64,000 nucleotides of DNA from Acetobacteraceae bacterium (GTDB taxonomy: Bacteria; Pseudomonadota; Alphaproteobacteria; Acetobacterales; Acetobacteraceae): the NCBI GenBank assembly GCA_004843165.1, contig CP039459.1, positions 1,339,501 through 1,403,500 of the forward strand. The letters run 5' to 3'. The position numbers were made by a program, and so were the translations under genes. The stretch's first letter is position 1. The number at the start of each line of letters is the position of its first letter. The notes beneath the pieces were generated by a model. It was given only the letters and a program-made list of their open reading frames with translations, was not told where the DNA came from and ran no database searches. Below are positions 2,011 through 33,401 of this stretch, in pieces.

Positions 2011-2030
2011 GGAAAAGCTTTCAGTGACGA

Positions 2031-2066: not shown

Positions 2067-2196
2067 AGTATCAAGTTTAAAAATAAAAATTATTTTATCG
2101 AATGTTCTTTTAATGATGGTTTAAATTTTTGCTTTATGCCTAAAATTTCAAAGGGGAGAGAGCGGGGGATTCTAGAATAAAATTAAGGAGAAAAAA

Positions 2197-2394
2197 ATGA
2201 GTTTGAAACTTGTGTCGCAAGATGTGGTGAGTGATCATAAACTGGATAAATTAGCGATTTTTCATCATGTTATCTTTTTAATGCTCTTTTCAGGAATTTT
2301 GGGATTTGCCGTATTTGCGTATCAGCGTCTTTCCAAACGATTGGATTTTCTTGAAAAGAAAGCGTGGGATATTTCTGAAGAGCCTAAAGCGTAA
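2197..2394 (+). CDS. Small single-pass membrane protein
   Basis: A 65-residue protein of unknown function. A polar N-terminus precedes one hydrophobic segment at about residues 22-42 (HHVIFLMLFSGILGFAVFAY), followed by a basic stretch (QRLSKR) and an acidic end. The positive residues after the helix favour a cytoplasmic C-terminus. A clear AAGGAG site precedes the ATG, and a strong hairpin follows at 2410-2437, so this is a single-gene transcript between terminators. I do not recognise the family. Confidence 0.7.
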   Translation: MSLKLVSQDVVSDHKLDKLAIFHHVIFLMLFSGILGFAVFAYQRLSKRLDFLEKKAWDISEEPKA

Positions 2395-2409
2395 GCATTT
2401 AGAAACGCT

Positions 2410-2437
2410 ATTAAAGAGAGCGTAAGCTCTCTTTAAT
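2410..2437 (+). terminator. Strong hairpin after the small membrane gene
   Basis: A 12-bp perfect stem (2410-2421 with 2426-2437) closes on a GTAA tetraloop. No T run follows, so it may act as a processing or stabilising structure, or as a weak terminator for 2197-2394. Confidence 0.55.
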
Positions 2438-2448
2438 ATAATTGAATA

Positions 2449-2675
2449 GAATTGCAGGCGCATCAATTTCAGGATGCGAACGGCAAGACAAAATATTTTG
2501 CCTTTTGAGCGGATTTCGTTTTAGAGTGAAGACATAATACGATTCTGAGAGTTGGCTCATAAGGAAGCTAACCCTGAATCTCCCAATAAATATCTGTCGA
2601 ATGACCTCATACGACTTAGCAGGAAATCTTCTTTTCGTTGATTTCTTGCGAGCATGATTTCTCGTGCTTTTTTTG
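2449..2675 (+). ncRNA. Candidate structured small RNA
   Basis: A gene-free stretch of about 300 bases carries the marks of an RNA gene. There is a perfect TATAAT at 2437-2442, though no good -35. Several hairpins follow: 2459-2464 with 2473-2478; a long imperfect arm across roughly 2551-2580; and GAAATC with GATTTC around 2622-2645. It ends in a terminator-like stem (2651-2657 with 2662-2668) with seven T residues. No convincing ORF lies inside. I compared it by eye with tmRNA, SRP RNA, RNase P and 6S RNA and found no match. It could instead be a leader with an attenuator for the gene at 2737. Confidence 0.45.
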
Positions 2676-2736
2676 AAGAAAAAGTTTCGTGAAGGGGGAG
2701 TAAAACAGCATTAATTTTATGCGGAGGGATTCTGCC

Positions 2737-3459
2737 ATGTCATCGCCTATACTTCATCGTGATTTTTTAGAGCCTTTAGAACGTAAGGCCTTGTTTTTCT
2801 TACAGCAAAAAAATTTACCTTTAGAAGAAATGTCACCGGAAAGCGCACGTAGGCTATTGAGTGAGATTCTTTTTCAACATTTAGAAGAATTACAACTTTA
2901 TCGCCGTTACCTTGCCGGTGCTTTCATTTTTGAATTTATTCGAAAAAATGGCCGTCATTATAATCGTAAGAATTTTGAAAAATCCTGGAAATGGCTCATT
3001 CAAGAGAAGCGTGAAGATCACCCGGCTTTAAATCATACTTTAGGTTTGGCAGGAGAAAGAGAGGAGGAGGCCATTTTACAAACGGCGGTGCGATATTGGT
3101 ATCATTTTCGTTGGCATGCTTGGGAACGTCAAGGGATGGTTTCACGTGCTATTATGGGACGCAAAAAACGAGAAGAGGCCGAAGAGATGCAAGAAAAGAA
3201 AAAAGTTTCTTTGGCTTTTATTCAAACCAATCAGAGATTTGAAACTGGAAAGATTGTGCGTTTGCGTGATGAGTCAGGAAATATTTTTGAGGTTCTTCCT
3301 GTTCCAAAAGAGCGGGAAGCGTTACAGAAAAAAGCTTCTTTGATTGCAGAACATCCTCAGGAAAACACAGAGCGGCAAAAAGCGCTTCCGGCGCCTTCAA
3401 TAATGTCGCAGGAAATTTTTATTGCGGAAAAACAGAAATCTTTTGTTAAAAAATCTTAA
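2737..3459 (+). CDS. Hypothetical cytoplasmic protein
   Basis: A 240-residue charged protein with no signal peptide or membrane segment; I do not recognise it. The first in-frame ATG is 2719, but the GGAGGG at 2723-2728 lies 8 bases before the ATG at 2737, so the start is placed there. Residues 20-150 look helical, rich in aromatic and charged residues (for example EFIRKNGRHYNRKNFEKSWK). A possible small beta domain follows (FETGKIVRLRDESGNIFEVL), then a low-complexity tail. It follows the candidate RNA at 2449-2675, which may regulate it. Confidence 0.65.
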   Translation: MSSPILHRDFLEPLERKALFFLQQKNLPLEEMSPESARRLLSEILFQHLEELQLYRRYLAGAFIFEFIRKNGRHYNRKNFEKSWKWLIQEKREDHPALNHTLGLAGEREEEAILQTAVRYWYHFRWHAWERQGMVSRAIMGRKKREEAEEMQEKKKVSLAFIQTNQRFETGKIVRLRDESGNIFEVLPVPKEREALQKKASLIAEHPQENTERQKALPAPSIMSQEIFIAEKQKSFVKKS

Positions 3460-3546
3460 AAGAGTTTGCTCTCTTTGCAAGATTTTGAATGTTAGATAGG
3501 GTACAAATAGTATTTTTTAAAAAAAGCGGAAAAGAAGGGAATAAAT

Positions 3547-4260
3547 ATGAAAAAATTACTCGCAACGACAGCTTTGCTAACAAGCGCACTTGGCGTTTTA
3601 GGATTTGTTGGCGGTTCTCAAGCATTCGCAACAGCTTCTCAAAGCTATACAAGTCCAGCTGCGCAAGATAAAATTAATACACAGCAGGCACAGGCAGAAA
3701 AAAAAGCAGATAAGCAAGCTGGGGTTTCTGATACATTGCAAACGCAAGAGCAAAAAGATCTTGCAGAAGCTAAAGAAGAGAATGCTACCGTTGGCACACT
3801 TGTGAGTGAAGAGGCAAAACAAGTCGGCAAACAGGATCAGAAAAAAGCAAAAGCTACCGCATTGATCGATCAGCAACTGGCACAGGCAGCGACAGCTGAG
3901 GCGCAAAAAAATGCGCAGACAGCAGCGGATAAAGGGCAAGAGGCTTCCAAAAAAGCACAAAAAACCGGTGGAAAAGCCGATCCTGCAGCGCTCTATTGCG
4001 GAAAACTTGGAGGGCATGCTCACATTGGCAAGGGAATTACCGGTAAAGAAACACAATATTGCTATTTGCCAAATAACACCCGTGTTCCAGCAAATGATGT
4101 TTACCAATCGGCTCTAAAGGGTAAGGGAACAATTGCGCCAACCAAATCTGTAACACATCTGACAAAAGAACAGAAAAAAGATCTTACAGATGAAAATCAA
4201 CAGCTCAAAGAAGATGCAGCGGAGAACCAAAGATACGCACAGCATAAAGCTTCTAAGTAA
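3547..4260 (+). CDS. Exported Lys/Gln/Ala-rich protein with DUF333-like C-terminal domain
   Basis: A 237-residue secreted or periplasmic protein. Residues 1-28 form a classical signal peptide ending in SQAFA. Residues 30-135 are low complexity, dominated by A, K, Q, E and D, and probably form an extended helix or coiled coil. From about residue 140 the sequence DPAALYCGKLGGHAHIGKG and a later YCYLPNNTRV resemble the DUF333 (putative hemolysin) fold, with its two cysteines and NPA-x-YC start. The next gene is a short clear DUF333 lipoprotein, which supports this reading. An AAGGGA ribosome site precedes the ATG and a terminator follows. Function is unknown; it could be a cell-envelope structural protein. 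Confidence 0.75.
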   Translation: MKKLLATTALLTSALGVLGFVGGSQAFATASQSYTSPAAQDKINTQQAQAEKKADKQAGVSDTLQTQEQKDLAEAKEENATVGTLVSEEAKQVGKQDQKKAKATALIDQQLAQAATAEAQKNAQTAADKGQEASKKAQKTGGKADPAALYCGKLGGHAHIGKGITGKETQYCYLPNNTRVPANDVYQSALKGKGTIAPTKSVTHLTKEQKKDLTDENQQLKEDAAENQRYAQHKASK

Positions 4261-4271
4261 TTGTCGTGTAA

Positions 4272-4299
4272 ATGCCTCCTTTTTAGGAGGCATTTTTTT
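4272..4299 (+). terminator. Rho-independent terminator
   Basis: A 9-bp perfect stem (4272-4280 with 4285-4293) with a TTTT loop and seven following T residues ends the 3547-4260 transcript. Confidence 0.92.
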
Positions 4300-4319
4300 A
4301 TGATGAGGATGATAAAATA

Positions 4320-4550
4320 ATGAATAAATTTTTAATTGTTTTTATCGCTATGGGTTTAGGTGCTTGTGCGCATCATTCATCTACAAGAGAAAAAACCATC
4401 GGCCATCCCAATCCTGCTGCAAGCTATTGTCTAGAGCAAAAAGGAAGTTTGGAGCTTAAAAAAGATTCTCAAGGAAATGTGATAGGATATTGCCATCTAA
4501 AAAGTGGAAAAATCATTGAAGAATGGAATTTCTTTAGACAATCACATTGA
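4320..4550 (+). CDS. DUF333 family lipoprotein
   Basis: A 76-residue predicted lipoprotein. The signal sequence ends in a lipobox LGAC (C16). The mature part carries the DUF333 signature: NPAASYC, a charged strand segment, an NVIGYC second cysteine, and IIEEWNFFR at the C-terminus, matching the family's EEWA-YR ending. DUF333 proteins are often labelled putative hemolysin, but no activity is established. It lies 59 bases after the larger exported gene, separated by a terminator. The two share the YC...YC pattern and probably arose from a common domain. Confidence 0.85.
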   Translation: MNKFLIVFIAMGLGACAHHSSTREKTIGHPNPAASYCLEQKGSLELKKDSQGNVIGYCHLKSGKIIEEWNFFRQSH

Positions 4551-4574
4551 AGCATAGTCCGTAAAAAGAATGCA

Positions 4575-4606
4575 AAAGGGTTTCTAAAAATAGAAGCCCT
4601 TTTATA
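4575..4606 (+). terminator. Terminator after the DUF333 lipoprotein gene
   Basis: A 12-bp stem with one G-U pair (4575-4586 with 4591-4602) and an AAAA loop ends in a short T-rich stretch. Confidence 0.8.
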
Positions 4607-4920
4607 TCGTCAGTAAAGGATAAAATTTTTATGTTTTTGCTGTTCTTATGTCAGCACAGCAAAAACATTTTAAGAATAAAAGATACCATAAAAAGTGCCG
4701 CTAAAGTGCTTTTGAGAAAAATCCGTTTCATAAAAATATCCTTTTATGTTGTTCGTATTTTCCTTTTGTAAAGGTTGAAGTTGCTATAGACTTAAGGCAA
4801 CGATTTTTCTTTGGAATGAAAAAAATTACTCCTGTCTAAATAATAAAAAATATTGTTGGAGGGCAGTTTCTATTCTAAACATTTCAGGATTTATGCTTAA
4901 TTTTTATGGAGTATTTAATA
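4607..4920. other. Gene-poor interval with a 13-bp inverted repeat
   Basis: This stretch holds one notable structure: a 13-bp perfect inverted repeat (4631-4643 with 4656-4668) that starts and ends in runs of A or T. It could be the 3' end of a minus-strand transcript carrying the tiny ORF at 4651-4731. The rest, about 4735-4907, is AT-rich and presumably contains the promoter of the hydrolase gene at 4921; I cannot name specific boxes. Confidence 0.4.
4651..4731 (-). CDS. Possible 26-residue hydrophobic peptide
   Basis: A tiny ORF starts MKRIFLKSTLAALFMVSF and ends in LLC. It has a basic N-terminus and one hydrophobic segment, like a small membrane peptide or an isolated signal sequence. 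An AAGGAT site lies 7 bases before its ATG. Its stop codon falls in the loop of the inverted repeat 4631-4668. Small toxic membrane peptides look like this, but so do chance ORFs; treat as tentative. Confidence 0.25.
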   Translation of the reverse strand: MKRIFLKSTLAALFMVSFILKMFLLC

Positions 4921-6069
4921 ATGAGTCTTTTGCAACAATTACCTTTTGTTAAATCACTCTTAAAAAAAGATGCTGAGTCTCCTAAAAAGACATTTCCTTT
5001 TAGAAGTCTTGTCATCGGTACAGGAACCGGGATCGGTATTTGTAATTATGTCCAAGAGGCTGCTATTCGAGCTGGTGTCAGTACGCAGGCATGGATATGG
5101 TTAAAGTTGATTGATCTTTTTGCACCTTTAATTAAACGTAATATTTGGACTGTTGTTAAAGGTAGCAAGCATGTTCAAGCCGGAGGGTTCTGGCATTGGC
5201 GCTGCCCAAAAGTAACCCTTCATAAAAAGCTTGTTGGCGATACGAAAGTTTTTGTGACAACGCCAAAAGAAGGGGCAGAATCGCCTATTCACATTCTTTA
5301 CCTTCATGGCGGGGATTTTGTGATGGATGTGATGCCATATTATGGCTGGATGCTTTCCGCTCTGTCAGCAAAACTTAGCTGTACCGTTCATATGCCTTTC
5401 TTACCGCTTGCGCCTAAGCATAAATGGCGTGAAACGATGGATGATATTGTTAAAGGCTACAATTATCTTGTTGACCAGCACGGTGCCGAGAATATTGTTG
5501 TTATGGGAGATTCCGCTGGTGGATGGCTCTCTGTCGCTTTGAGTCGTGAATTGACGAAACGCTCGTTGCCACAACCAAAATGTCTTGTTCTCTATTCGCC
5601 ATTCCTTGATTTATCCTGTACGGGCAAGGGGCAGAAAGAATTGGCGAAGACGGATCCTATTCTTGATATCCCTTTCTTGCGTCAGGGGGGACAGATGTGG
5701 ATTGGGGATCTTAAATTAACAGACCCTCAAATTAATCCGCTCATGGCAGATTCCTTAGAGGGCTTGCCACCAACAATCGTCTTTTCGGGAACACGTGATA
5801 TTTTAAATTCGGATGCTCGTCGTCTGAAACAGAAAGAGCCTTGGGTTGTTCTGGAACAATATTACGGTATGCCGCATATTTTTGTGGTTGGGAAATACAT
5901 CCCTGAATCACATCAAGCTTTAAAGCAAGCAATGGAATTTATTCGCAATCCTTATCGTGCGGAAACAAAGGAAGAGCGTGAGACGCTACACGAAAATAGC
6001 CGTGGTGAAAGCTGGCGTTTGAAATTAGAGGATGCAGACCCCGTTAAAAGTCAAAGAGGGATCAAGTAA
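4921..6069 (+). CDS. Alpha/beta hydrolase (hormone-sensitive-lipase type)
   Basis: A 382-residue carboxylesterase-like enzyme. It carries the oxyanion-hole motif LYLHGGD near residue 127 and the nucleophile elbow GDSAGG with Ser198. A likely acid follows in SGTRDILNSD, and the histidine in GMPHIFV completes the triad. These fit the HSL/GDXG family, which cleaves short-chain or amphipathic esters. The start is set at 4921 because GGAG at 4908-4911 is 9 bases upstream; the ATG at 4906 has no such site. There is no clear export signal, although residues 25-50 are fairly hydrophobic and might bind membrane. Substrate unknown. Confidence 0.85.
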   Translation: MSLLQQLPFVKSLLKKDAESPKKTFPFRSLVIGTGTGIGICNYVQEAAIRAGVSTQAWIWLKLIDLFAPLIKRNIWTVVKGSKHVQAGGFWHWRCPKVTLHKKLVGDTKVFVTTPKEGAESPIHILYLHGGDFVMDVMPYYGWMLSALSAKLSCTVHMPFLPLAPKHKWRETMDDIVKGYNYLVDQHGAENIVVMGDSAGGWLSVALSRELTKRSLPQPKCLVLYSPFLDLSCTGKGQKELAKTDPILDIPFLRQGGQMWIGDLKLTDPQINPLMADSLEGLPPTIVFSGTRDILNSDARRLKQKEPWVVLEQYYGMPHIFVVGKYIPESHQALKQAMEFIRNPYRAETKEERETLHENSRGESWRLKLEDADPVKSQRGIK

Positions 6070-21617: not shown

Positions 21618-24600
21618 CTAAGATGCTGTGTTTGATGCATTTAGCTCTGCCTGTGTAATAATCCTTGTTATCGCTTCTTTTTCTAGATCTGGTGGGTATT
21701 TATATTTTTTGAGCAGGCGTTTAATGGCAATCCGCATTTTTGCACGCCCTTGCTCTGTACGCATCCAGTCAACGGTTGCATTCCGCTTTACAATCTTGAC
21801 AAGTTCCGTGGCCATTTCATGTAAAACAGGTTCTTTTAGCGCTTCTACTGCGCTGGTATTTTTGGCAAGCGCATCATAAAAAGCAATTTCCTCGATAGAA
21901 AAGGGACTTTCTTGGCTATCTTGAATCTCTTTATTGAGGGCTTTTGCATGTTTGATGAGTTCTTCGAGCATTTGAGCCGCCGTCAATTGCCCAACATTAT
22001 AACGCCCTACTAGTTCTTGGAGTTTTTCAGAAAACAATCCGCCTTTTGTTTGGTTTGTACGGCTAATTTTCTGGATGCGATCTGCAAGGAGGCGCTCTAA
22101 GGCCTCTACGGCAAGATTACGTTGCTTTGTTTCATTTAATTTATGCAGAAAAGCCTCAGAGAGCACTTCAACTTCAGGCTTATCAATGCCCATCAAATCT
22201 AAAATATCAATGGTTTCATCGGCATGAAGGGCTTTTTCCATTAAATGACGGATAGCTTGATCTATTTCAGCACGAGATTTTAGTTTCTCCGTTTTTAAAT
22301 GCTCTTTGCCAATTTGAGAATCAACAGCGAGGAAAAAGCCTAAATCTTTGCTAATTTTTTGCGCTTCATCTGTAGAGGGAACCAGTGCCCAAGCTGTTTT
22401 TAAGGTTTTGACAGCGAGTGGAAAACGATTGCGTGCTTCTTTTCTCTGAAAGTCATCTTTGGCCGCTGCTAATTCTTTTTGACGTAAGGCTAGAATATGT
22501 TCAACAGCATCCCTTAAAATCCGTAGGCGCTCCTCATGGCTTGTCTTATCGCCTAAGGCTTTAGGATAATTGATCCCTTGTGGAGAGCTTGGATTAAAGA
22601 AATCTTGAACAATTTTAAATCGTTTTTCAAGCTCTTTGATAGCAATCTCAATATTAACGCCCATCTCTTTTTCACCAGAACGCTCACTGTTTTTGGTATA
22701 ATGATTCAGCGCTTTCCGTAGGGCCTCAGCAATACCAACATAGTCAACAACAAGACCTGCTTTTTTGCCTTTAGAGACACGATTGACCCGTGCCATGGCC
22801 TGCATGAGCCCATGTTCTTTCATCGGTTTGTCAATATAAAGAACATTGAGACAAGGGGCGTCAAAACCTGTGAGCCACATATCTCGTACAATCACCAGTT
22901 GGAGTGGGTCTTCTGGGTTTTTAATACGTTCTGCCAGGAGAGTTAGGCGTTGTTTGGTACTTTTATGTTTTGCAAGTTCGGGGCCATCGCTGGCAGCACT
23001 GGTCATGATGACTTTGATCGCCCCTTTGTCATCGGAATCATTGTGCCATTCAGGGCGTAGCGCAATGATTTCCTCATAAAGATCTGCACAGACTTTACGA
23101 CTGAATCCAACAATCATGCCCTTACCGGGGACTTCCTGACTGTCTTGTCGTGTTTCAAAATGCGCTACTAAATGCTCTGCAAGTCTTTTTAAGCGAGGCT
23201 TTGATCCCATGAGCTTTTCCATTTGAAGATAGGCAAGCTGGCGTTGAACATTTTCCTCCTCTTCCTCTGCTACCGCATCGTATTTTTCTCTGATTTCTTC
23301 GAGAGCGTCTTTGTCGAGATCCAGTGGAATAAGATGGGGTTCATAATAAACAGGGACTGTGACTTCATCGAGGACGGCTTGGCTAATATCATAAATATCA
23401 AGATATGCCCCAAATAATCCTGTTGTGCTTTTATCCTCTTTTTCAAGTGGTGTGCCTGTAAACCCAACGAAGGTTGCCTTTGGCAAGGCATCGCGAACAT
23501 TTTGCGCTAGCCCTGATTTAATCTGGCCGCTTTTGGGGTTGAATTTGTCTCCAAGTCCATATTGGGAACGGTGCGCCTCATCGGCGAGGACAATAATATT
23601 TTGACGTTCAGAAAGGCGTGGCATTTCTTCTTCGTCCTCAGAAAGACCGAATTTCTGAAGCGTTGAGAAAATAATCCCCCCATTATTACGGTTTAAAAGA
23701 CGGCGTAAATCATCTCTTGTTTTGGCTTGCTGAGGTGTCGTCGTTAGAAAATCCTGCACTTCCCAAAAAGTTTGATAGAGCTGGTCATCTAAATCATTAC
23801 GATCCGTTAAAATAAGCAGTGTCGGATTTCTAAGCTCTGCCTGCTGAATAAGGGCACGGGCGAGGAAGGCCATTAAAAGGGATTTACCTGCGCCCTGCGT
23901 ATGCCAAATGACACCGCCTCTTTGATCGGTACGGCTGGCCTCTAAAATATGTGGAATGGCTTTTTTTAAAGCGTAATATTGGTGATAGCCCGCTAAAATT
24001 TTAATGCTTTCTTTGGAATCTTTCTTAAAGGCAATGGCACAGGAAATTAGGTCTAAAAAGACTTTTTTCTCGCAAACACCCTTCAGAAGATTTTTAAGAT
24101 TTTCATCTCCATTTGCTTGATGAGACGTGCGCCAGTTCATAAAGCGCCGAAAATTAGCGGTCAGGGAACCAATGCGAGAAGTGATGCCATCTGAAATAAT
24201 GAGAAATTCATTAAACCTTAGAAAAGCAGGAAGCTCAGCCTTATAGGTTTGCAACTGCCCATAGGCATCTTCAATATTAGAATCATTCGATGGACTTTTT
24301 AGTTCAATCAGCCCAACCATCATCCCATTAAGATAGAGGGCAATATCAGCGCATCTGGTATCTCGCCCCTCTTGCATCCATAGTTGACGAACCGCTAAAA
24401 AATCATTCTTTTCTGGATTTTTAAAATCAATAACGGACGCATATTCATGTTTATATGTGCCGTCTGACTTGCGAATACTGACATTCACGCCCTTTATGAG
24501 GAGATTATGAAGGCGCTCATTCTCTAAGGTGAGATTATCATATTCCGGACGGCGGAGTGCACTTAAAGCTGCCGAAATGGCGGCCTCCGGCATGTCAGGA

Positions 24601-24776
24601 TTAAATTTTCGTAATGCCGCCTCAAGGCGATTTTCTAAAAGCGCAATCTGGCGACTTTCCCGCTCTGAATTGGGAAAGCTCTCATACTTCCAATTCTCAA
24701 CCTTCCAGCCTAAATCCTCTAACCACTTACAGGCTGTCATTTCGAGTTCATTTTCAGAGAGGAAAGGGGAAATCAT
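21618..24776 (-). CDS. hsdR: Type I restriction enzyme, R subunit
   Basis: The 1052-residue motor and nuclease subunit of a type I restriction-modification complex; it translocates and cuts unmethylated DNA. The N-terminal PD-(D/E)xK nuclease has D144 in RCADIALYLN and E158-L-K160 in GLIELKSP. The SF2 helicase part has Walker A TQGAGKS (about 293-299) and DEAH (399-402), then GFTGTPLE. A C-terminal helical region binds the methylase core. The length is normal and the frame intact. It is preceded by the TIR paralogue B gene with only 13 bases between, so the two are one operon, while hsdM and hsdS are in a separate block upstream. Confidence 0.97.
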   Translation of the reverse strand: MISPFLSENELEMTACKWLEDLGWKVENWKYESFPNSERESRQIALLENRLEAALRKFNPDMPEAAISAALSALRRPEYDNLTLENERLHNLLIKGVNVSIRKSDGTYKHEYASVIDFKNPEKNDFLAVRQLWMQEGRDTRCADIALYLNGMMVGLIELKSPSNDSNIEDAYGQLQTYKAELPAFLRFNEFLIISDGITSRIGSLTANFRRFMNWRTSHQANGDENLKNLLKGVCEKKVFLDLISCAIAFKKDSKESIKILAGYHQYYALKKAIPHILEASRTDQRGGVIWHTQGAGKSLLMAFLARALIQQAELRNPTLLILTDRNDLDDQLYQTFWEVQDFLTTTPQQAKTRDDLRRLLNRNNGGIIFSTLQKFGLSEDEEEMPRLSERQNIIVLADEAHRSQYGLGDKFNPKSGQIKSGLAQNVRDALPKATFVGFTGTPLEKEDKSTTGLFGAYLDIYDISQAVLDEVTVPVYYEPHLIPLDLDKDALEEIREKYDAVAEEEEENVQRQLAYLQMEKLMGSKPRLKRLAEHLVAHFETRQDSQEVPGKGMIVGFSRKVCADLYEEIIALRPEWHNDSDDKGAIKVIMTSAASDGPELAKHKSTKQRLTLLAERIKNPEDPLQLVIVRDMWLTGFDAPCLNVLYIDKPMKEHGLMQAMARVNRVSKGKKAGLVVDYVGIAEALRKALNHYTKNSERSGEKEMGVNIEIAIKELEKRFKIVQDFFNPSSPQGINYPKALGDKTSHEERLRILRDAVEHILALRQKELAAAKDDFQRKEARNRFPLAVKTLKTAWALVPSTDEAQKISKDLGFFLAVDSQIGKEHLKTEKLKSRAEIDQAIRHLMEKALHADETIDILDLMGIDKPEVEVLSEAFLHKLNETKQRNLAVEALERLLADRIQKISRTNQTKGGLFSEKLQELVGRYNVGQLTAAQMLEELIKHAKALNKEIQDSQESPFSIEEIAFYDALAKNTSAVEALKEPVLHEMATELVKIVKRNATVDWMRTEQGRAKMRIAIKRLLKKYKYPPDLEKEAITRIITQAELNASNTAS

Positions 24777-24789
24777 AGGGGAGAAGTCT

Positions 24790-25914
24790 CTAATAGCGGA
24801 AATAGGGTGCAGTATCTTTTTCTTTAATTTTACTGGCTTTTTTAATCAGAAAATTCCAGAAAATATCAGCGACTTCTTCAGCAGAAAATCCTTCTTCTGA
24901 GGTTCGCTCTGCTAGAATAAGTTGGGATTGAGTAAATCCTTCAATCGCTCCAGTATGTTTTTGCCAACTCAATGAGGAAAATCCTTCGTGTAGCTCAAGA
25001 ATGCAGGATGGATCATGACTGCTTGAAGAAGCACCGCCATTGAGATGCCAAAAGGTTCCCATAGAGACTTTATATTTTCCATAGGATAGAGCCCCTTCAG
25101 AATAACAGATTAAAGAAGGCATTTTAGGAGTATTTGATGTGGCAAAGCCAAAAGAATTATCAGGAGCCGTTAAAACAAGGGAAGCTTGAGCAGCTAAATT
25201 TCCCTCAAGATAAATAGAGACAATTGCTAAGTCATTTGTCTTTTGTTCAAAGGAGCCTTGCCAGCCTGGACTTTCATTTTGAATGGCGGAGATTCTTTTT
25301 TCAAAAAATGCAGTAAGGGTCTTGAAGCTATTTTGAACGAAATTCTGTTTATCATAGTCAGTAAAATTTTTTGGTAGGGATAAGGTATGCAGGGATGTCG
25401 CAGAAATGTTCTGTGGGGTATCCTTAATTTCAGTAGGTGTAAATTTTACTTGGGTTGGCTTAGGTTGATTGAGTTTTTGTAAAACATCACGTAATTTCTC
25501 AATAACATTTTGCCATGCTTCATCTTCATTAAACCAAAATCTGGAAAGAATAGGGTGTCCATCTTTCGGAATACATAATTTTTGACTTAAAGGCGTATGT
25601 TTCCAGTCAGAAAAACGATAAATAACAGGAAGGACAGACATATTTCCTGCTGTTTGACGTTGCAGTGCAATTTGAAGTTCTTTATCCCAACAGTAGCCAG
25701 AATCTATATAATCAGGGCTTACTAAAGCGATGAAAAGCTGGCTATTTTCGAGTTGCTTTTTCACCTCAGGATCAATTTCTGTTCCTGCTGTTATTTGATG
25801 ATCTGACCAGTCTTTTATAAAGCCTTGACGCTTCAAGGTTGCAAGGCGTTTTCTGAGTTCTAAAAGCCCTGCTTCATCCTCATGGCAATAAGATAAAAAC
25901 GCCTGAACTGCCAT
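24790..25914 (-). CDS. TIR domain protein, paralogue B (catalytic glutamate present)
   Basis: A 374-residue protein with an N-terminal TIR domain: strand AFLSYCHEDE, then LENSQLFIALVSPDYIDSGYCWDKEL, with E79 at the position of the NADase glutamate in active TIR domains. A linker of about residues 140-190 is followed by the C-terminal domain shared with the protein at 20025. No membrane segment or other known sensor is visible. AAGGAT precedes the ATG. Its stop is 13 bases from the hsdR start, so it is translated from the same message. The inferred role is an NAD-depleting abortive-infection effector whose C-terminal domain senses a trigger, possibly restriction failure. Not a Thoeris pair, as no ThsA-like gene is present. 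Confidence 0.88.
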   Translation of the reverse strand: MAVQAFLSYCHEDEAGLLELRKRLATLKRQGFIKDWSDHQITAGTEIDPEVKKQLENSQLFIALVSPDYIDSGYCWDKELQIALQRQTAGNMSVLPVIYRFSDWKHTPLSQKLCIPKDGHPILSRFWFNEDEAWQNVIEKLRDVLQKLNQPKPTQVKFTPTEIKDTPQNISATSLHTLSLPKNFTDYDKQNFVQNSFKTLTAFFEKRISAIQNESPGWQGSFEQKTNDLAIVSIYLEGNLAAQASLVLTAPDNSFGFATSNTPKMPSLICYSEGALSYGKYKVSMGTFWHLNGGASSSSHDPSCILELHEGFSSLSWQKHTGAIEGFTQSQLILAERTSEEGFSAEEVADIFWNFLIKKASKIKEKDTAPYFRY

Positions 25915-26087
25915 TATATGATCCTTATAATTTATCTTTGGATTAAGCGCTTTACTTTATCAAGAATGGGCAAAAACAGCAAAAGTAAACTAAAAGTTGA
26001 ATAAGCTTTGAGAGAGCTTGTTTTCTAAGATCTTACAAACCATATATTTGCTAGGGTGGGGATAAGTTAGATGAGGAGTAACACCTT

Positions 26088-26309
26088 ATGACTAAGAAAG
26101 TTTTTATTGTTCCAGATCCTGCACATTCAACAGGTGAGCCTGTTGAAAAACATCTTGTTAAAAAAGCAGGTGGTGAAGTCGTTTTAGATGCTAAGACACA
26201 AAAAGAGGCGATAGAACTTGCCAAGGACGCAGGGTTTGAACCTCATGTTGCTCGTGAGAGAGAAACAAAGCCTAATCCGAATGATCCAGCCCATTGGCGT
26301 AAGGTTTAA
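26088..26309 (+). CDS. Small DUF2188-like protein
   Basis: A 73-residue protein opposed to the surrounding defence genes. The pattern fits DUF2188: an N-terminal strand KKVFIVPDP, a middle KKAGGEVVLDAKTQKEAIELAKDAG, and a polar end. DUF2188 proteins are small and of unknown function. The match is by pattern and moderate. A GAGGAG site precedes the ATG and a strong terminator follows, so it has its own transcript. Confidence 0.65.
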   Translation: MTKKVFIVPDPAHSTGEPVEKHLVKKAGGEVVLDAKTQKEAIELAKDAGFEPHVARERETKPNPNDPAHWRKV

Positions 26310-26321
26310 AAGCCTAGAAGT

Positions 26322-26352
26322 AAAAAGGGGAAAGAAAATCTTTCCCCTTTTT
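26322..26352 (+). terminator. Rho-independent terminator
   Basis: A 13-bp perfect stem (26322-26334 with 26340-26352) is flanked by A and T runs. It ends the DUF2188-like gene transcript and could also act on the minus strand. Confidence 0.92.
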
Positions 26353-26426
26353 TATTTAGGATAGTATCGGAAATACAGAGTAACTTTTGAGAAAGAAAAG
26401 ATTTCCAATCATGGGATAAGCTTTAT

Positions 26427-27410
26427 TTAAAAGTTAAAACGCGGTTGAGAAATACGAGTAAATGGATTTCTACCTAGTTTTAGCACCTTTGTAATTTCGT
26501 ATTCTATTTTATTGCCTTTGAGTGTTTCATAAGTAAATATTTTTAATAAACAGGTTATTGTGTCTCCTTTTTTAAAGGAGATTTCATCATTGTTAACACT
26601 TCGTATAAAAACACTATCGGTTATTGCTGCTTTTATTTTCTTTTTTTTGTTTTCTTCTCGAAACTGCCAAGAAGTTCCTTCAAAATTTATTGCAATAACC
26701 TCTAAAATTTTTTCTCTGACGCGTTCATCAATGAGGACTTTTTCATTGAGTGGGATTTCAAATGAAGCGTATTCATCTTTAGTAACAATTGTTTTCTGAG
26801 ATTCTGGTGTACCGCTTATGTGAAAGGTAATTTCATCTATGCCAGAATGTTTTAGTGGGGAAAGAGTTTCCTGTAGGGCACTTCGTGCTTTTAGACTCTT
26901 AAATAGTTTCCAAATATCTTTTGAAACGCTGATTTTTTCAGGGTCACCATCTTGATTGATAATTAATATTTCCATCATGTCGAAAGAAGACTTCTCTTCT
27001 GTAATCTTACGTTTTTGGAGATATTTAATAAAAGAAATTAGACTATTTATGCTTGCAGGCAAGCCCTTTCTTAACCCCAAGAGCCCTATGGTTTCTGCTA
27101 ATGATTTTATTGCTTGATAATCAGGGCTATTTATAAAATCTCGAACAGGTTCCCAAAAATGATAGGCGAGTTCGAGATAGGCAATGAAAGAGCCATGCTC
27201 AAAGTTTGTTTGAACACGGGCACTTACACTTGCAGAGGAGCTGTAAAGGACAGAAGAAGCTTGCTCCAGTAATGTTCCAAACCCAGCAAGAGAATTACCT
27301 AATTCAGTAGCATTTATACTACCTTCTACAGCAGAGCCAGCATAGCGAATACTTAGTATTATCGTAGATTCTTTATGGTTATTTTCAGAGTTCGTCTTTT
27401 CTAAAGGCAT
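26427..27410 (-). CDS. Uncharacterised protein of the hsd operon
   Basis: A 327-residue protein, last gene of the hsdM-hepT-mntA-hsdS block, 30 bases after hsdS. I do not know its name. Residues 22-85 have a distinctive pattern (SINATELGNSLAGFGTLLEQ, then VQTNFEHGSFIAYLEL), which I associate with unnamed proteins from mobile and defence regions. A helical middle (about 100-140) follows. The C-terminal part has a SWQFREENKKKK-IKAAITDSVF strand block and FKKGDTITCLL, like a small beta-barrel. There is no signal peptide or nuclease motif. It may be a regulator, adaptor or effector tied to the restriction system. Confidence 0.75.
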   Translation of the reverse strand: MPLEKTNSENNHKESTIILSIRYAGSAVEGSINATELGNSLAGFGTLLEQASSVLYSSSASVSARVQTNFEHGSFIAYLELAYHFWEPVRDFINSPDYQAIKSLAETIGLLGLRKGLPASINSLISFIKYLQKRKITEEKSSFDMMEILIINQDGDPEKISVSKDIWKLFKSLKARSALQETLSPLKHSGIDEITFHISGTPESQKTIVTKDEYASFEIPLNEKVLIDERVREKILEVIAINFEGTSWQFREENKKKKIKAAITDSVFIRSVNNDEISFKKGDTITCLLKIFTYETLKGNKIEYEITKVLKLGRNPFTRISQPRFNF

Positions 27411-27440: not shown

Positions 27441-28700
27441 TTAAAATTTTACTCGGACTTTGCCAGAAATAAGGCGGGGGAGAAGAGTGTCTCGTAATTC
27501 AATTAAGTGACGATTTTCTTCTTCGTTTTGGTGAATTTTTTGGTGCAAAGAGGCTATATTTTGTTCCATTTGACTTAGAAGTTCTGAAGAAGGAACAAAA
27601 ATTTTTGCTTCTGTTAAATGTTTTCGTTGGATATGTCCCATCGTGGTTACTTTAGCAGATGCAATTTGCTGAAATTCAGGTAAATGATGTAGAAGCCAGT
27701 TTTGGACGAACCATTGAGGAAAGTTCGAGGAGGTTACTTTGAAAAGGTGTTGGTTTAAAGCGACATTTTCTCCATGCCAAATATTAACAATTAAGCTTCC
27801 AGACCAAGAAAAAATTAAATCTCCTGCTTTTACAATATATTTTTCAGGTAGGTTGCTACTCGCTCTATCGGCTCCATTCGTATTTTGAGAGCGAAGTTGA
27901 GAAATTTTAAGAACTGGAAGTTCGTTCTCACCATTTTTCGGCGGAAATTTTTGTAGCGCTAAGCCATTTAGAAAATTTATGCTATCATCTAAAGGCTTTT
28001 CTTCCCAGCCTTCGGGGATTCCGTCATCGTTTAGGGTGTTGGGAAAGAGGTTCCAGATTTCAGGGTCAAGGTAGGGATTCTCAGGGCGGTTTTCTTTTTT
28101 GGCATTAATTTTTTCTTTAACAGGGCCAAAATTGACAAACCAATCTTGAAACAGTGTGCGGGCCGTTCCCTCTAAAATTTTATTCTGCTCTTTATTATGT
28201 TGGATTTTATCATCCAGACTGCCTAAAACTCCTGCAATCGCTTTTTGTTCAGGAAGAGGAGGAAGAAGAAGATCAAAAAGTTTGAGAGCATCTTTATCTC
28301 CTCTTGGCATTTTTGCGCCTTTTGAGGTTTGGCAAGAATATTCTGTAAAAAATGGAGTTGTTAAAATATAAAAAAGAAAGTCGGTATTTATTTTATCATT
28401 AGGGATAAATACTAAAACATCGTTAGAGCAATAGCCATTTCTATCGGCTTTCCAGATTTTTCTGAAATAGGTTCTAATATTTGAAAAAAGGATATGATTT
28501 TTTTCAAAAAGCGTGGAATTTCCTTTTGGTGATTTGGATTTAAAAAATTCAACCCCTCCAAGATTAGGAAGCATGCTGTCTGTTGATATGTAATTGTTTT
28601 TGGATGCACGCCCCTTATTGGTGGAATATGTTATAGCATCCCCAAGTCTGACTTTCTGCCATCCTGTAGGCAGTTTATGCGTATGATTAGTCAATTTCAT
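27441..28700 (-). CDS. hsdS: Type I restriction enzyme, specificity subunit
   Basis: The 419-residue DNA-recognition subunit. Two target recognition domains are separated by a conserved helical spacer. The first TRD starts at LPTGWQKVRLGDAI and the first spacer is LPPLPEQKAIAGVLGSLDDK. The second TRD starts at GIPEGWEEKPLDD and the second spacer is QMEQNIASLHQKI, ending RDTLLPRLISGKV. The recognition sequence cannot be read from the protein. The start codon overlaps the mntA stop by 4 bases (ATGA), giving translational coupling. Intact. Confidence 0.95.
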   Translation of the reverse strand: MKLTNHTHKLPTGWQKVRLGDAITYSTNKGRASKNNYISTDSMLPNLGGVEFFKSKSPKGNSTLFEKNHILFSNIRTYFRKIWKADRNGYCSNDVLVFIPNDKINTDFLFYILTTPFFTEYSCQTSKGAKMPRGDKDALKLFDLLLPPLPEQKAIAGVLGSLDDKIQHNKEQNKILEGTARTLFQDWFVNFGPVKEKINAKKENRPENPYLDPEIWNLFPNTLNDDGIPEGWEEKPLDDSINFLNGLALQKFPPKNGENELPVLKISQLRSQNTNGADRASSNLPEKYIVKAGDLIFSWSGSLIVNIWHGENVALNQHLFKVTSSNFPQWFVQNWLLHHLPEFQQIASAKVTTMGHIQRKHLTEAKIFVPSSELLSQMEQNIASLHQKIHQNEEENRHLIELRDTLLPRLISGKVRVKF

Positions 28701-29026
28701 GATTTCTTTTTCTGAATGAAAATAAGGTCATTCTGTATCAATTTTTGGAATTCAGGTGTCATTTCTGCCCAGAGGACAAGGTCTATTTTCATGGGAAGCG
28801 GTGCCTCATCAAACTCAGTTGCTAAAATGCTTTGTGTTTTTAAATCGAGGCCATTTTTCCCCATAAGGGCGAGGTCAAGATCTGAGCCACGTCGTAAAAC
28901 GGCTTCAGGTTGGGTTCGACTTCCAAAAACAGCCACATCATGATCCGGAATAATTTTTTGTAAAATACCCTGCACAATTTTTAAATATTTTGGCTCCAAA
29001 CGCAGGGCAGAAAGATTTTTTGGCAT
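28697..29026 (-). CDS. mntA: MNT-type nucleotidyltransferase antitoxin
   Basis: A 109-residue minimal nucleotidyltransferase. The catalytic motif is G35-S36 followed by D49-L-D51, with a third acid D82 in KIDLVLW. MntA antitoxins inactivate their HEPN toxin by transferring AMP to a tyrosine near its active site. The spacing between GS and DxD is 12 residues, two more than the common 10. It starts 2 bases after the HEPN gene and overlaps hsdS by 4 bases, so it is embedded in the hsd operon. Gene name by family and neighbour. Confidence 0.85.
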   Translation of the reverse strand: MPKNLSALRLEPKYLKIVQGILQKIIPDHDVAVFGSRTQPEAVLRRGSDLDLALMGKNGLDLKTQSILATEFDEAPLPMKIDLVLWAEMTPEFQKLIQNDLIFIQKKKS

Positions 29027-29028
29027 TA

Positions 29029-29433
29029 TTAAGCCATTTTTGCTTCAAGGCGTGCCAAAAGTACTTCAGCTTCTTTTAGAAAATCAGGAATACCTTCCAA
29101 AACCTCCTTGGCGATTTCTGCATTATAGGTATGAACAGATTTATTCCGTAAAATCCTAAACTGCTGCCAGACATCCCAGCTATGGGCGATAATCCCAAAA
29201 GCATAGGCTTCTCTAATCATGGTAGGGAAAGAGAGTTGGGAGGCCTCTTCGGGGGAGGGGTGATTTTCAGCAAGCCATCTTTTGATAAATTTATGTGCCT
29301 GTTCATATGCAAGATCGAAGCGTTTGGTTTGCATATCACGATAGGCAGGGCTATCGGGATGTTCTTTCAGAAGCGCCTCTCCCTCTTTTAAATTCTTTAC
29401 CGCAAGGCGAAGCGTTGAGAGATCAAGCGTCAT
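29029..29433 (-). CDS. hepT: HEPN toxin, HepT / HI0074 family
   Basis: A 134-residue all-helical HEPN protein. The RNase motif RX4HXY is seen as R96-N-K-S-V-H101-T-Y103, and the Tyr is the usual AMP acceptor. HEPN toxins cut RNA (tRNA in studied cases) and stop growth until MntA modifies them. Its start overlaps the end of hsdM by 11 bases. Toxin precedes antitoxin, as in HepT-MntA systems. The placement between hsdM and hsdS is the striking point. It may also be annotated as nucleotidyltransferase substrate-binding protein. Confidence 0.87.
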   Translation of the reverse strand: MTLDLSTLRLAVKNLKEGEALLKEHPDSPAYRDMQTKRFDLAYEQAHKFIKRWLAENHPSPEEASQLSFPTMIREAYAFGIIAHSWDVWQQFRILRNKSVHTYNAEIAKEVLEGIPDFLKEAEVLLARLEAKMA

Positions 29434-31057
29434 TTTTTATCTCCTCTTCTTGGGGCAGAATAATCTTATTAAGATTGTCTTTGATCGCTTTGTCGAGGCT
29501 TGCGCTTTTTTCGAGAGACTCAAAAAGGGCTTTTTGAAGGCGGGAGAATTTTTCTAAAAAGGGTTCGGTATCTTCTTCGCTTTCAGCGATGCCGACATAT
29601 CGGCCGGGCGTGACGATAAAATCATTTTCGGCGACTTCGTCTAAGGTTGCGGCGTAACAAAAGCCCGCGATATCTTCATATTTCCCAGCCTCTTTGATCC
29701 CCTGCCATGCGTGGTAGGTTTGGGCAATTTTTGCGATATCTTCTTTAGTGAGCTCTCGCCGTGTACGGCTCACCATTTTTCCCATTTTTCTGGCATCAAT
29801 AAAGAGAATTTCCTTTTTACGATTGCGTAATGTTTTTGGGTTTTTCTCTTTATTTAAAAACCATAAGCAGGCTGGAATTTGCGTTGTAAAAAACATTTGT
29901 CCCGGCAGGGCGACGATACAGTCAACAACCTGTTCTTCAATCATATTCTGACGAATGGCAGATTCCTCTTTTTGCCCTGAGGACATAGAGCCATTGGCTA
30001 AAACCACGCCTGCGCGTCCATCAGGGGTTAAATGATGCAAAATATGCGACATCCACCCAAAATTGGCGTTTCCCTGTGGCGGCTGGCCATATTTCCAGCG
30101 GACATCTCCTTGCAGGGATGCTTCCCACCAATCCGAGATGTTAAAGGGCGGATTGGCCAAGATCACTTCGAAACGTTCATCGGGAAGCTCATCTTTTAAA
30201 AAGGAGCCGACATTATTCCATTGAATATTGGCAGAAATCCCTCGAACACCGAGATTCATTTTGGCGAGTTTAAAGGTTGTCTGATTGCTTTCCTGTCCGT
30301 AAATGGCAATGTCGCCAATTTTTCCGCCATGGGCTTCGATAAATTTTTCAGATTGGATGAACATCCCACCCGATCCACAACAGGGGTCATAAATTCGCTC
30401 ACCCTGTTGCGGGGAGAGCATTTCAACTAAAAGCTGCACCACACAGCGTGGTGTGTAAAATTCACCGCCTCTTTTGCCTTCTTTCCCTGCAAATTCGCCC
30501 AGAAAATATTCATAAACTTGGCCGAGAAGGTCTCTCGTCGTTTGGCCTTTTTTCTGAGGTTTAATGTCATTGGTGAACTGCTCAACGAGACCGCCAATCA
30601 TTGATTGGTCTAAGGCAGGCTCTGCATAGCCAGAGGGCAAAACACCTTTAAGAGAGAGATTGTCTCGTTCGACAGCTTCCATTGCACGATCAATGAGCAA
30701 GCCAATCGAAACATTTTCCATGCGGCCTGTTTTTGCGTTTTTATGCTGACCTGTAATGCGGGCATTCTCTTTTAGAAATTCCCAGCGTGCCTCTTTTGGA
30801 ACCCAGAAAATATTCTCAGCGATATATTCATCTCTATCCTCGGCAGAGTCTGGATATTCCTTAAGAAGTTCTGCATGTTTTTCTTCAAAAGAGGCAGAAA
30901 TATAACGCAGGAAAATCAGGCCAAGAACAATATATTTATATTGAGACGGTTCTAAATTTTTACGTAATTTATCGGCAGCTTTAAATAAGGAAGATTCGAA
31001 ACTTTCTGTTTTTATAGTTTTCTTTGTGGCTGTTTTAGGCTTTTCAGAAGCGGCCAT
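29423..31057 (-). CDS. hsdM: Type I restriction enzyme, M subunit
   Basis: A 544-residue N6-adenine DNA methyltransferase of the type I complex. It protects host DNA using S-adenosylmethionine and, with HsdS and HsdR, restricts unmodified DNA. The N-terminal helical HsdM domain holds RKNLEPSQYKYIVLGLIFLR. The SAM motif D224-PCCGSGG and the catalytic NPPF (302-305) follow. The start at 31057 follows AAGGAAA; the frame extends upstream to 31096. First gene of an operon with hepT, mntA, hsdS and the gene at 26427. Confidence 0.97.
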   Translation of the reverse strand: MAASEKPKTATKKTIKTESFESSLFKAADKLRKNLEPSQYKYIVLGLIFLRYISASFEEKHAELLKEYPDSAEDRDEYIAENIFWVPKEARWEFLKENARITGQHKNAKTGRMENVSIGLLIDRAMEAVERDNLSLKGVLPSGYAEPALDQSMIGGLVEQFTNDIKPQKKGQTTRDLLGQVYEYFLGEFAGKEGKRGGEFYTPRCVVQLLVEMLSPQQGERIYDPCCGSGGMFIQSEKFIEAHGGKIGDIAIYGQESNQTTFKLAKMNLGVRGISANIQWNNVGSFLKDELPDERFEVILANPPFNISDWWEASLQGDVRWKYGQPPQGNANFGWMSHILHHLTPDGRAGVVLANGSMSSGQKEESAIRQNMIEEQVVDCIVALPGQMFFTTQIPACLWFLNKEKNPKTLRNRKKEILFIDARKMGKMVSRTRRELTKEDIAKIAQTYHAWQGIKEAGKYEDIAGFCYAATLDEVAENDFIVTPGRYVGIAESEEDTEPFLEKFSRLQKALFESLEKSASLDKAIKDNLNKIILPQEEEIKNDA

Positions 31058-31210
31058 GCAGAATTTCCTTGAGATTTTTAGGTCAATAATACTCAAGATT
31101 TCTAACAGTTTTTAGAAAAAGAAGAAATGTAATAAATGTAGGACTGGGCGTGGGACAGAAAATTTTAAAAACAAGAAAAGCAGCAGGAAAGTGCGTTTCT
31201 TAGATGAATA

Positions 31211-31286
31211 TGGTGGAGATTAGCGGAATCGAACCGCTGGCCTTGTCATTGCGAACGACACGCTCTACCAACTGAGCTAAACCCCC
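31211..31286 (-). tRNA. tRNA-Ala (anticodon CGC)
   Basis: A 76-base cloverleaf with the 3' CCA encoded. Acceptor GGGGGTT pairs with AATCTCC, allowing two G-U pairs. The D arm is GCTC/GAGC; the anticodon stem TGTCG/TGACA closes loop TTCGCAA with anticodon CGC (codon GCG); the T arm is AGCGG/CCGCT around TTCGATT. It borders the defence island upstream of hsdM, a usual site for genomic island insertion. I found no direct repeat of its 3' end elsewhere in the window. Confidence 0.95.
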
Positions 31287-31477
31287 ATGAAGCCTACAGG
31301 CTTATTCCAAGTTCTTGTTTGTATCCATTGCGCTTTTTACAGAAGAGGTCAAGAGGGAGAGAAGAGGAAATAAAGAGAAAAAGCTTTTCCTTCTATTTTT
31401 ACCCTAAACAAGCTAAATCTGAGAACAATATTATAGAATGGCTTTGAACGGATAAAGCCGAAATTAAGGAATATTAC

Positions 31478-31792
31478 GTGCTGCTGATTGCAACTGTTTT
31501 TCAACTTCTTTTCTTTTTAATGGATGCTTATGTCTATGTGATTTTGGCTTATTGTATCCTTTCCATGGTTATTGGTTTTGGACTTATTAGCCAAGAGAAT
31601 CGGTTTGTCATGGCGATTTTTCAGGTAACCGCTAAATTGGTTGAGCCAGCGCTAAATCCTATTCGGGCGATTCTACCGCAAACCGGCATGATGGATTTCT
31701 CGCCTTTGGTCCTTTTACTGAGTTTGCAGTTTTTATTTCCCTATATCCTCAGAGGCGTTTTTCGCTCTTTGGTTGCTCTCTATGCTGGCTGA
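31478..31792 (+). CDS. YggT family membrane protein
   Basis: A 104-residue inner-membrane protein of the YggT family, with two hydrophobic regions (about residues 3-38 and 72-98) and the conserved KLVEPALNPIRAILPQTGMMDFSPLV, where P-x-R and D-x-S-P are family hallmarks. It starts at GTG 31478, 7 bases after AAGGA. Family members are linked to osmotic tolerance and cell division in various bacteria, but a precise role is not established. Monocistronic here. Confidence 0.9.
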   Translation: MLLIATVFQLLFFLMDAYVYVILAYCILSMVIGFGLISQENRFVMAIFQVTAKLVEPALNPIRAILPQTGMMDFSPLVLLLSLQFLFPYILRGVFRSLVALYAG

Positions 31793-31851
31793 GAGGCCTT
31801 AAAAGCATAAATTAAAATATTGGGGGACTAATAGGTTAGCAGAGGATGCAA

Positions 31852-31915
31852 TAGTCTAAAAGACTAGGAAATGAAGAAAAAACGGATTAAAAAGGAAAGT
31901 CTTCTCGGAGACTTT
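31852..31915 (+). promoter_or_regulatory. glnA leader with paired inverted repeats
   Basis: Two small hairpins sit upstream of glnA: TAGTCT/AGACTA (31852-31857 with 31861-31866) and AAAGTCT/AGACTTT (31896-31902 with 31909-31915). Both arms share AGTCT/AGACT, so they could pair in alternate ways. No T run follows. A regulatory role is conjecture; no sigma-54 site is visible. Confidence 0.3.
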
Positions 31916-31946
31916 AATTTGTCTATAATTTCTTAAGGTCTTAGCT

Positions 31947-33401
31947 ATGCCATCCCCCAAAAAAAACGCAACTGCCCCGAAGAAACATTCGAAAGCAGCT
32001 ATTCAGAAAATTCTTTCCATGATCGAAGAGCAGGGCATTGATTTTGCCGATTTGCGCTTCACTAGCCCAGATGGAAGATGGCATCATGTCGCACAGGCCG
32101 TTGCAACTTTAACACCGGAAAGTTTTGAAGAGGGTTTCCTTTTTGATGCTTCTTCTATTCCGGGTTGGCAAGCCATTGATCAGGCAGATATGGCTTTGAT
32201 CCCTGACCCGGAAACGGCTGTTCTAGATGCTTTTTCAGCACGTCCGCAACTTGTTTTGATTTGTGATGTTGTTAATCCGCTTACAGGTGCGCTTTATCCA
32301 CGTGATCCACGTGCCACAGGCCGCCGTGCAGAGGAATATCTCAAAAGCACCGGCATTGCGGATGAAGCTTTCTTCGGGCCTGAGGGGGAATTTTTTATTT
32401 TTGATAATGCACGTTTTGGTGTTGGGGGACATTACAGCACGTACCAAGTTGAAAGCACCGAAGGTGCAGAAGCTGGCTTAAAAGATTATTCCGAAGGAAA
32501 TTTTGGTCAGCGGCCCGGTCATAATGGCGGCTATATGAAGCTCAATCCGGTTGATAGTGAACCGGATCTGCGTTCAGAAATGCTTTCCCTTATGGCGGAA
32601 ATGGGCTTAGAGCCGGAACGTCATCATCATGAGGTTGCCCGCTCTCAGCATGAGCTTGGTATTCGCTTTGCCTCTTTGATTAAAGCTGCTGATAATATGC
32701 AGATTTATAAATATTGCGTGCATAATGCGGCGGCTTCTTACGGTAAAACGGCAACCTTCATGCCAAAGCCAATTCTAGGCGAAAATGGTTCTGGGATGCA
32801 TGTGCATCAGTCTATTTGGAAAGAAGGCAAGCCTGTTTTTGCAGGCAAGGAATATGCAGGCCTTTCTGAAACGGCGCTTTATTATATCGGCGGTATTCTC
32901 CACCATGCTAAAGCCTTGAATGCTTTCACCAACCCATCCACAAACTCTTATAAACGTTTGTTGCCGGGTTTTGAGGCACCGGTTCTTTTGGCTTATTCTG
33001 CGGCTAACCGTTCAGCTTCCTGTCGTATTCCTTTGGTGAATAATCCAAAAGGTAAGCGTGTTGAGGTGCGTTTTCCAGATGCGACAGCCAACCCTTATCT
33101 TGCCTTTTCCGCTATGTTGATGGCCGGTCTGGACGGGATTAAGAAAAAAATTCATCCGGGTGAGGCTATGTCTGGAAATCTTTATGAATTGCCAGAGGCG
33201 GAACGGAAAAAAATTCCAACAGTTTGCCATTCTTTACGCTCTGCTTTGCAGGCTTTGGAAAAAGATCATGATTTCTTACTTGAAGGCGGCGTCTTTACCA
33301 AAGATCAAATTGAGGCACATATTGAATTGAAAATGAGAGATGTGCTGCGTTTAGAAAAAAGTCCACATCCGGCAGAGTTTGAGATGTATTATTCGCTCTA
33401 A
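31947..33401 (+). CDS. glnA: Glutamine synthetase type I
   Basis: ATP-dependent enzyme joining ammonia to glutamate, the entry point for nitrogen. The 484 residues carry SSIPGWQAI, FGPEGEFFIFDN, NGGYMKLNP, NGSGMHVHQSIWK (metal and ammonium site) and RSASCRIP. NLYELPEAE is the adenylylation-site tyrosine loop, so GlnE control is expected. The N-terminus has about 15 extra lysine- and alanine-rich residues before the conserved AIQKILSMIEE. It has its own leader, and a strong bidirectional terminator follows. Confidence 0.96.
   Translation: MPSPKKNATAPKKHSKAAIQKILSMIEEQGIDFADLRFTSPDGRWHHVAQAVATLTPESFEEGFLFDASSIPGWQAIDQADMALIPDPETAVLDAFSARPQLVLICDVVNPLTGALYPRDPRATGRRAEEYLKSTGIADEAFFGPEGEFFIFDNARFGVGGHYSTYQVESTEGAEAGLKDYSEGNFGQRPGHNGGYMKLNPVDSEPDLRSEMLSLMAEMGLEPERHHHEVARSQHELGIRFASLIKAADNMQIYKYCVHNAAASYGKTATFMPKPILGENGSGMHVHQSIWKEGKPVFAGKEYAGLSETALYYIGGILHHAKALNAFTNPSTNSYKRLLPGFEAPVLLAYSAANRSASCRIPLVNNPKGKRVEVRFPDATANPYLAFSAMLMAGLDGIKKKIHPGEAMSGNLYELPEAERKKIPTVCHSLRSALQALEKDHDFLLEGGVFTKDQIEAHIELKMRDVLRLEKSPHPAEFEMYYSL

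Follow-up and report, generated by a model that had tools for sequence, protein, structure and literature searches.

In the HEPN-MNT toxin-antitoxin pairs studied so far, the HEPN protein is an RNase and the MNT partner adds AMP to the tyrosine of its motif (PMC11586414, PMC4621449), a covalent AMPylation by which the toxin is silenced (PMC11586414). The closest solved functional relative of the pair described here is that of Legionella, whose HEPN protein is an RNase silenced by AMPylation and in which a Q/E metal site matters (PMC11586414). An association of HEPN proteins with restriction-modification (R-M) systems is likewise known in general, from PrrC and from Anantharaman et al. 2013, and both the PrrC precedent and the concept of an R-M guardian are set out in PMC3710099 and PMC12707154.

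Against this background, we analyzed a window of 64,000 nucleotides from an Acetobacteraceae bacterium (GCA_004843165.1, contig CP039459.1, positions 1,339,501 to 1,403,500), the minus strand of which carries a type I R-M locus in the order hsdM, hepT, mntA, hsdS, a LAPAL/PDC-S42 gene, a TIR/ThsB-like gene and hsdR. In profile searches hsdM, hsdS and hsdR were all present and apparently complete. The type I N6-adenine methyltransferase subunit is encoded by hsdM at 29423..31096 (PF02384, 6e-108; PF12161, 1e-21; PADLOC MTase_I PDLC03019, 1.6e-176), the true start codon of which may lie slightly downstream; the type I specificity subunit, with its two recognition domains, by hsdS at 27441..28700 (PF01420, 1.4e-25 in two stretches; PADLOC Specificity_I, 3e-85); and the type I restriction subunit by hsdR at 21618..24776 (TIGR00348, 4e-172; HSDR_N, 1e-41). 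Between hsdM and hsdS lie hepT (29029..29433), for an HEPN protein of the HI0074 type, and mntA (28697..29026), for a minimal, HI0073-like nucleotidyltransferase. The initial annotation had proposed that an HEPN-MNT pair forms an integral part of the modification operon, and this is borne out by the family matches of the two proteins and by their neighbors HsdM, HsdS and HsdR.

The junctions between these genes are tight, and the positions and overlaps first reported for them proved exact to the base. The end of hsdM (29423) overlaps the start of hepT (29433) by 11 bp, the end of hepT (29029) is separated from the start of mntA (29026) by a gap of 2 bp (TAATAATG), and the end of mntA (28697) overlaps the start of hsdS (28700) by 4 bp, ATGA. 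A good ribosome-binding sequence, AGGAGA, belongs to hepT; at the mntA and hsdS starts no obvious ribosome-binding sequence was found at either junction, and both genes are probably translated through translational coupling, judging from this arrangement. A terminator-like hairpin at 26347-26328 lies just 3' of the LAPAL/PDC-S42 gene (26427..27410; NF053583, 1e-51; PDC-S42, 2e-52), which is probably the last gene of the unit that begins with hsdM, hepT, mntA and hsdS. Given this hairpin, hsdM-hepT-mntA-hsdS-LAPAL may form one transcription unit and TIR-hsdR a separate one; a promoter scan gave matches no commoner than in shuffled sequence. Beyond the hairpin, directly upstream of hsdR, is the gene for the TIR-domain, ThsB-like protein (24790..25914; TIR_2, 5e-14; ThsB PDLC00420, 1e-55). 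The LAPAL/PDC-S42 and TIR genes (24790-27410) are thus two more defense-like genes within the same hsd locus; among the other hsd-linked loci that were examined, none was found to carry either gene.

The HepT protein of the window has 134 aa and consists of HEPN only, with no ABC-ATPase part. It scores above the cut-offs of TIGR01987 (64.5 bits vs 55.8) and PF08780 (81.6 vs 31.8; 6e-23), and its AF2 model (pLDDT 95.6) fits HI0074 (1jog, TM 0.88) and the AMPylated Legionella HEPN (TM 0.81) better than the HepT of Shewanella or Aphanizomenon. Judged from these matches, it is an HEPN protein of the HI0074 type and, by analogy with the studied pairs, probably an RNase. Its motif reads R96-NKSV-H101-T-Y103, that is, RX4HXY placed in an HEPN fold. 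For MntA, which is above the cut-off for Polbeta PF18765 (1.8e-8) and also matches the N-terminal MNT part of PDLC03138 (1e-11), the closest solved relative is HI0073 (1no5, phmmer 6e-16), and the active-site residues are G35-S36, D49-x-D51 and D82. The pair scores 14.9 vs 60 bits and 23.8 vs 60 bits against the NCBIfam HepT and MntA equivalogs NF047751/NF047752, and is not filed under them because these scores fall below the cut-offs.

The statement in the initial annotation that both active-site motifs are intact thus holds for the residues, yet two departures had gone unnoticed. The spacing in MntA is GSX12DXD instead of the canonical GSX10DXD, with a G-loop two residues longer, whereas relatives mostly have X10; and the metal-site residues Q44/E47 of the Legionella HEPN, a Q/E pair kept by nearly all relatives, are replaced by K37/D40 in HepT. 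Judging from the longer G-loop and the altered metal site, the HepT and MntA of the window are fast-evolving, and long tree branches were seen for HepT, MntA and HsdM. The sample includes just one more genome of this genus, and the pair is absent from it; no HepT relatives were found on viral contigs.

Two search patterns, run against 84,980 species genomes, yielded 80 HepT loci, of which profiles of five proteins placed 27 inside hsd operons and 53 outside; with most relatives outside, the pair evidently does not require hsd. One of the patterns spanned the HepT motif, so that conservation of RX4HXY among these loci is partly circular; the MNT motif and the gene order lay outside both patterns. 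The order hsdM-hepT-MNT-hsdS, on a single strand, was found in all 27 hsd-linked loci as far as the contigs reach, and these loci range from Acetobacteraceae to Nitrospirota and Acidobacteriota. Conservation of this order had been chosen beforehand as the point on which the initial annotation could fail; the order recurs in 27/80 loci and in further genomes, and is not a one-off. Within the Acetobacteraceae, the pair is present in 6 other genomes and absent in 8 close HsdM relatives. A phylum-wide search was also made with just the Pfam model, which carries no preference for hsd contexts; of its 30 best loci, 3 have HsdM adjoining the pair.

The split form, as in the window, is also carried by Acetobacter plasmids, between methylase and subunit S, where the two genes are annotated as 'nucleotidyltransferase substrate binding protein' and 'nucleotidyltransferase domain-containing protein'. 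Catalytic residues are kept throughout the split loci (18/18 MNT rows and 18/18 HepT rows). Some loci carry additional genes. A gene that appears by eye to encode a Phd-like antitoxin lies between hsdM and hepT in L013 (8296-8556), and a gap of similar size separates the two genes in L019 and L096. The interval between hsdS and hsdR is a cargo site in L079, L051, L075, L026, L055, L088, L030 and L023, with a gene that differs in most of them (Mrr-type nuclease, IrrE/RmrA-like peptidase, SIR2, AbiEii, AbiJ-like, DUF1828/1829, DUF6615).

Of the 27 hsd-linked loci, 13 encode the MNT as an N-terminal fusion to HsdS, and later searches added more such fusions; a lead came from the PADLOC Specificity_I model PDLC03138, which itself begins with an MNT. 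Here too both active sites are kept, with GS, DxD and the third Asp in 14/14 MNTs and the R, H and Y of the motif in 14/14 HepTs. The fusion is not an assembly artefact, because one case is found on a closed circular plasmid, pZMOB01 of Zymomonas mobilis ATCC 10988, with hsdM at 30878-32470, hepT at 3-392, MNT::hsdS at 389-1972 (its annotation says no more than 'restriction endonuclease subunit S') and hsdR at 1969-5154. The AF2 model of another fusion, that of L079 (pLDDT 80.8), agrees with HsdS structures along most of the chain, and its first 100 residues match HI0073 (TM 0.94 by target); a complete MNT fold runs directly into the HsdS fold and a long linker is absent. In L183 the fusion occurs with a second type I HsdM family, about 30% identical to the HsdM of the window.

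Several loci depart from this layout. Two tandem HepT genes precede the MNT::HsdS fusion in L163 (688-1508), and in L060 (3193-6882) of the Magnetococcales, which is the same locus as L151 and L181 and was counted once, one HepT precedes a 687-aa MNT::HsdM and a second HepT precedes a 241-aa MNT::HsdS with a half-size HsdS. An MNT::HsdS with neither HepT nor HsdM beside it was seen in L180 (1382-2944) and is possibly an orphan antitoxin-bearing specificity subunit. Among the loci examined, no hsd-embedded HepT was found without an MNT; this and L180 agree with a toxin-antitoxin relation, on a small count in each case. Free and fused forms coexist within Zymomonas mobilis, since other plasmids of this species (L188, L189) carry free-standing HI0074/HI0073 pairs beside HicB, BrnT and YafQ toxin-antitoxin genes. 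A tryptophan in the G-loop (GSRxxWxAK) at first seemed to mark the fusions, being present in 15/15 MNT::HsdS, 1/22 split and 5/80 free MNTs, but as an interface rule it was dropped once it had turned up in free pairs (several of L154-L165) and proved missing from some fusions (L182, L183), and it is read as a mark of lineage.

Free and hsd-linked pairs are intermixed in the HepT tree. Linkage is clustered there (0/500 shuffles), yet at least 7 gain or loss changes of hsd linkage are needed on well-supported branches; HsdM relatives likewise gain or lose the pair repeatedly. An apparent co-divergence of HepT and HsdM, strong in the full set, was set aside as arising mostly from one tight Acetobacter clade, and after dereplication the correlation of distances was weak (r 0.36, p 0.05), which indicates that the partners have reassorted. 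The MNT and HepT trees rest on short alignments and are poorly resolved, and the count of fusion events is therefore claimed for two HsdM families only. Taken together, the sequences point to repeated selection for joining the pair to the methylase, especially to HsdS.

With hepT just before the MNT, the MNT directly before hsdS or fused to the HsdS N-terminus, and both active sites kept, we consider it an even call that hepT-mntA, as a type VII-like toxin-antitoxin module (HI0074/HI0073 subclass), has become linked to the type I methylase via HsdS and reports the state of that methylase. HepT would then be an RNase silenced by MntA through the addition of AMP to Y103, and MntA would act at or near the N-terminal recognition domain of HsdS, held there covalently in the fused forms and, in the split form of the window, by co-translation and probably also by binding. 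With the MNT located on HsdS or next to it, silencing would be expected at the methylase, and HepT would be kept inactive only as long as HsdM and HsdS form a normal complex that is free to act. A phage that disables or overwhelms the methylase, by DNA mimics, proteolysis or saturation, would let newly made HepT escape AMPylation and cut RNA, and growth would stop, as expected of an R-M guardian that resembles PrrC with EcoprrI in its logic while relying on other chemistry. By analogy with the studied pairs, covalent silencing would make fast activation of old HepT hard, and a response could come only through new HepT or through a de-AMPylation step, which was not seen here. The recurrence of the HsdS fusion suggests that the pair is coupled to the methylase once assembled, and that more than gene retention is at stake.

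The proposal of the initial annotation that the pair is a second line of defense fits both the MNT::HsdS fusions and the PrrC precedent. Its other suggestion, that loss or shut-off of the operon releases the toxin, is not supported and has become less likely: silencing in the studied pairs is covalent, through AMPylation (PMC11586414), and HepT that has already been made should remain inactive once synthesis ceases; addiction would need extra assumptions. We hold more tentatively, as a possibility on the doubtful side, that HsdS itself is the antitoxin, with an active AMPylating enzyme in the DNA-reading subunit, so that the state of the toxin would read out methylase assembly or DNA engagement, and that such a covalent-silencing guardian circuit evolved more than once by recruitment and fusion.

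Other explanations deserve weight. A mobile toxin-antitoxin pair may simply have landed in hsd operons and stabilize the locus or plasmid by addiction, with no signaling between HsdS and HepT. Free-standing copies are indeed common near integrases and relaxases and on plasmids, the embedded form is often plasmid-borne, other toxin-antitoxin genes lodge in or near these operons (the Phd-like gene in L013; RelB/RelE upstream in L186), and hsd linkage has been repeatedly gained and lost. However, the insertion is position-specific, directly before hsdS with constant order and strand, whereas other cargo lies mostly between hsdS and hsdR; a recurrent MNT-HsdS fusion is unexpected for a mere passenger, and covalent silencing is ill-suited to post-segregational killing, all of which leaves a passenger rather unlikely.

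Distinctly less probable to us is that the pair regulates R-M, with HepT a non-toxic substrate- or RNA-binding partner and MntA nucleotidylating HsdM, HsdS or HsdR or tuning hsd mRNA, perhaps while the system is becoming established in a new host. The family was first described as a nucleotidyltransferase with a substrate-binding subunit (TIGR01987, PF08780), L060 has an MNT fused to HsdM as well, with its own HepT, and the HsdS fusion would place the MNT near HsdM and HsdR. Yet all hsd-linked HepTs in the set keep the RX4HXY residues, which are needed for toxicity and AMPylation in the studied pairs, and the nearest functional relative with a structure, from Legionella, is an RNase under AMPylation control (PMC11586414). 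That the pair of the window, whatever its role elsewhere, is decaying or neutral strikes us as improbable: the long branches of HepT, MntA and HsdM, the altered G-loop length and metal site and the lack of the pair in the only other sampled genome of the genus would fit decay, but the frames are all open and tightly packed, catalytic residues are kept, the HepT model is confident (pLDDT 95.6), and hsdM, hsdS and hsdR look complete.

If the coupling of HepT to the methylase through HsdS is correct, a single fused protein would unite two well-studied systems, type I restriction-modification and type VII toxin-antitoxin, and would offer a concrete, testable explanation of how an R-M locus might detect that it is being inhibited. 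The plasmid pZMOB01 provides a closed example in a cultivable host, Zymomonas mobilis ATCC 10988, where the guardian model is directly testable; the enzyme domain on its fusion is easily overlooked, given the annotation as subunit S.

Among known systems, the Haemophilus influenzae pair HI0073/HI0074 (TIGR01987, PF08780; 1jog, 1no5) belongs to the same HEPN and MNT subfamilies in sequence and fold but is described, in the sources consulted, as a two-protein nucleotidyltransferase with no mention of an hsd context, whereas the pair of the window lies inside hsdM-hsdS. With the type VII HepT-MntA systems (Shewanella, Aphanizomenon and the Legionella HEPN-MNT pair, the last close in fold to the HepT of the window at TM 0.81) it shares the RX4HXY HEPN toxin and the GS/DxD MNT antitoxin; those studied pairs are free-standing, whereas this one is hsd-embedded, below the NCBIfam equivalog cut-offs and marked by GSX12DXD and by K37/D40 for Q44/E47. 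PrrC with EcoprrI resembles it as an HEPN-superfamily RNase gene within a type I hsd locus, proposed to act as a backup when restriction is blocked, with RNase activity presumed by analogy for the window. PrrC, however, has an ABC-ATPase part and no MNT, and the control partner here is an adenylyltransferase beside, and elsewhere fused to, HsdS; HepT may thus work like PrrC but is no PrrC, being 134 aa of HEPN only. The HEPN clades that Anantharaman et al. 2013 (PMC3710099) connect with R-M are similar in that HEPN RNases in R-M operons are proposed there as a second layer of defense; the main text mentions neither an MNT-HsdS fusion nor a fixed hsdM-hepT-MNT-hsdS order, and some of the present loci may already appear in the supplementary operon lists. 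No report of an adenylyltransferase (MNT)-HsdS fusion was found in the main texts of the open-licence literature, and three features appear to be new here: the joining of the MNT to HsdS in one protein, the constant placement ahead of hsdS and the distribution over different families.
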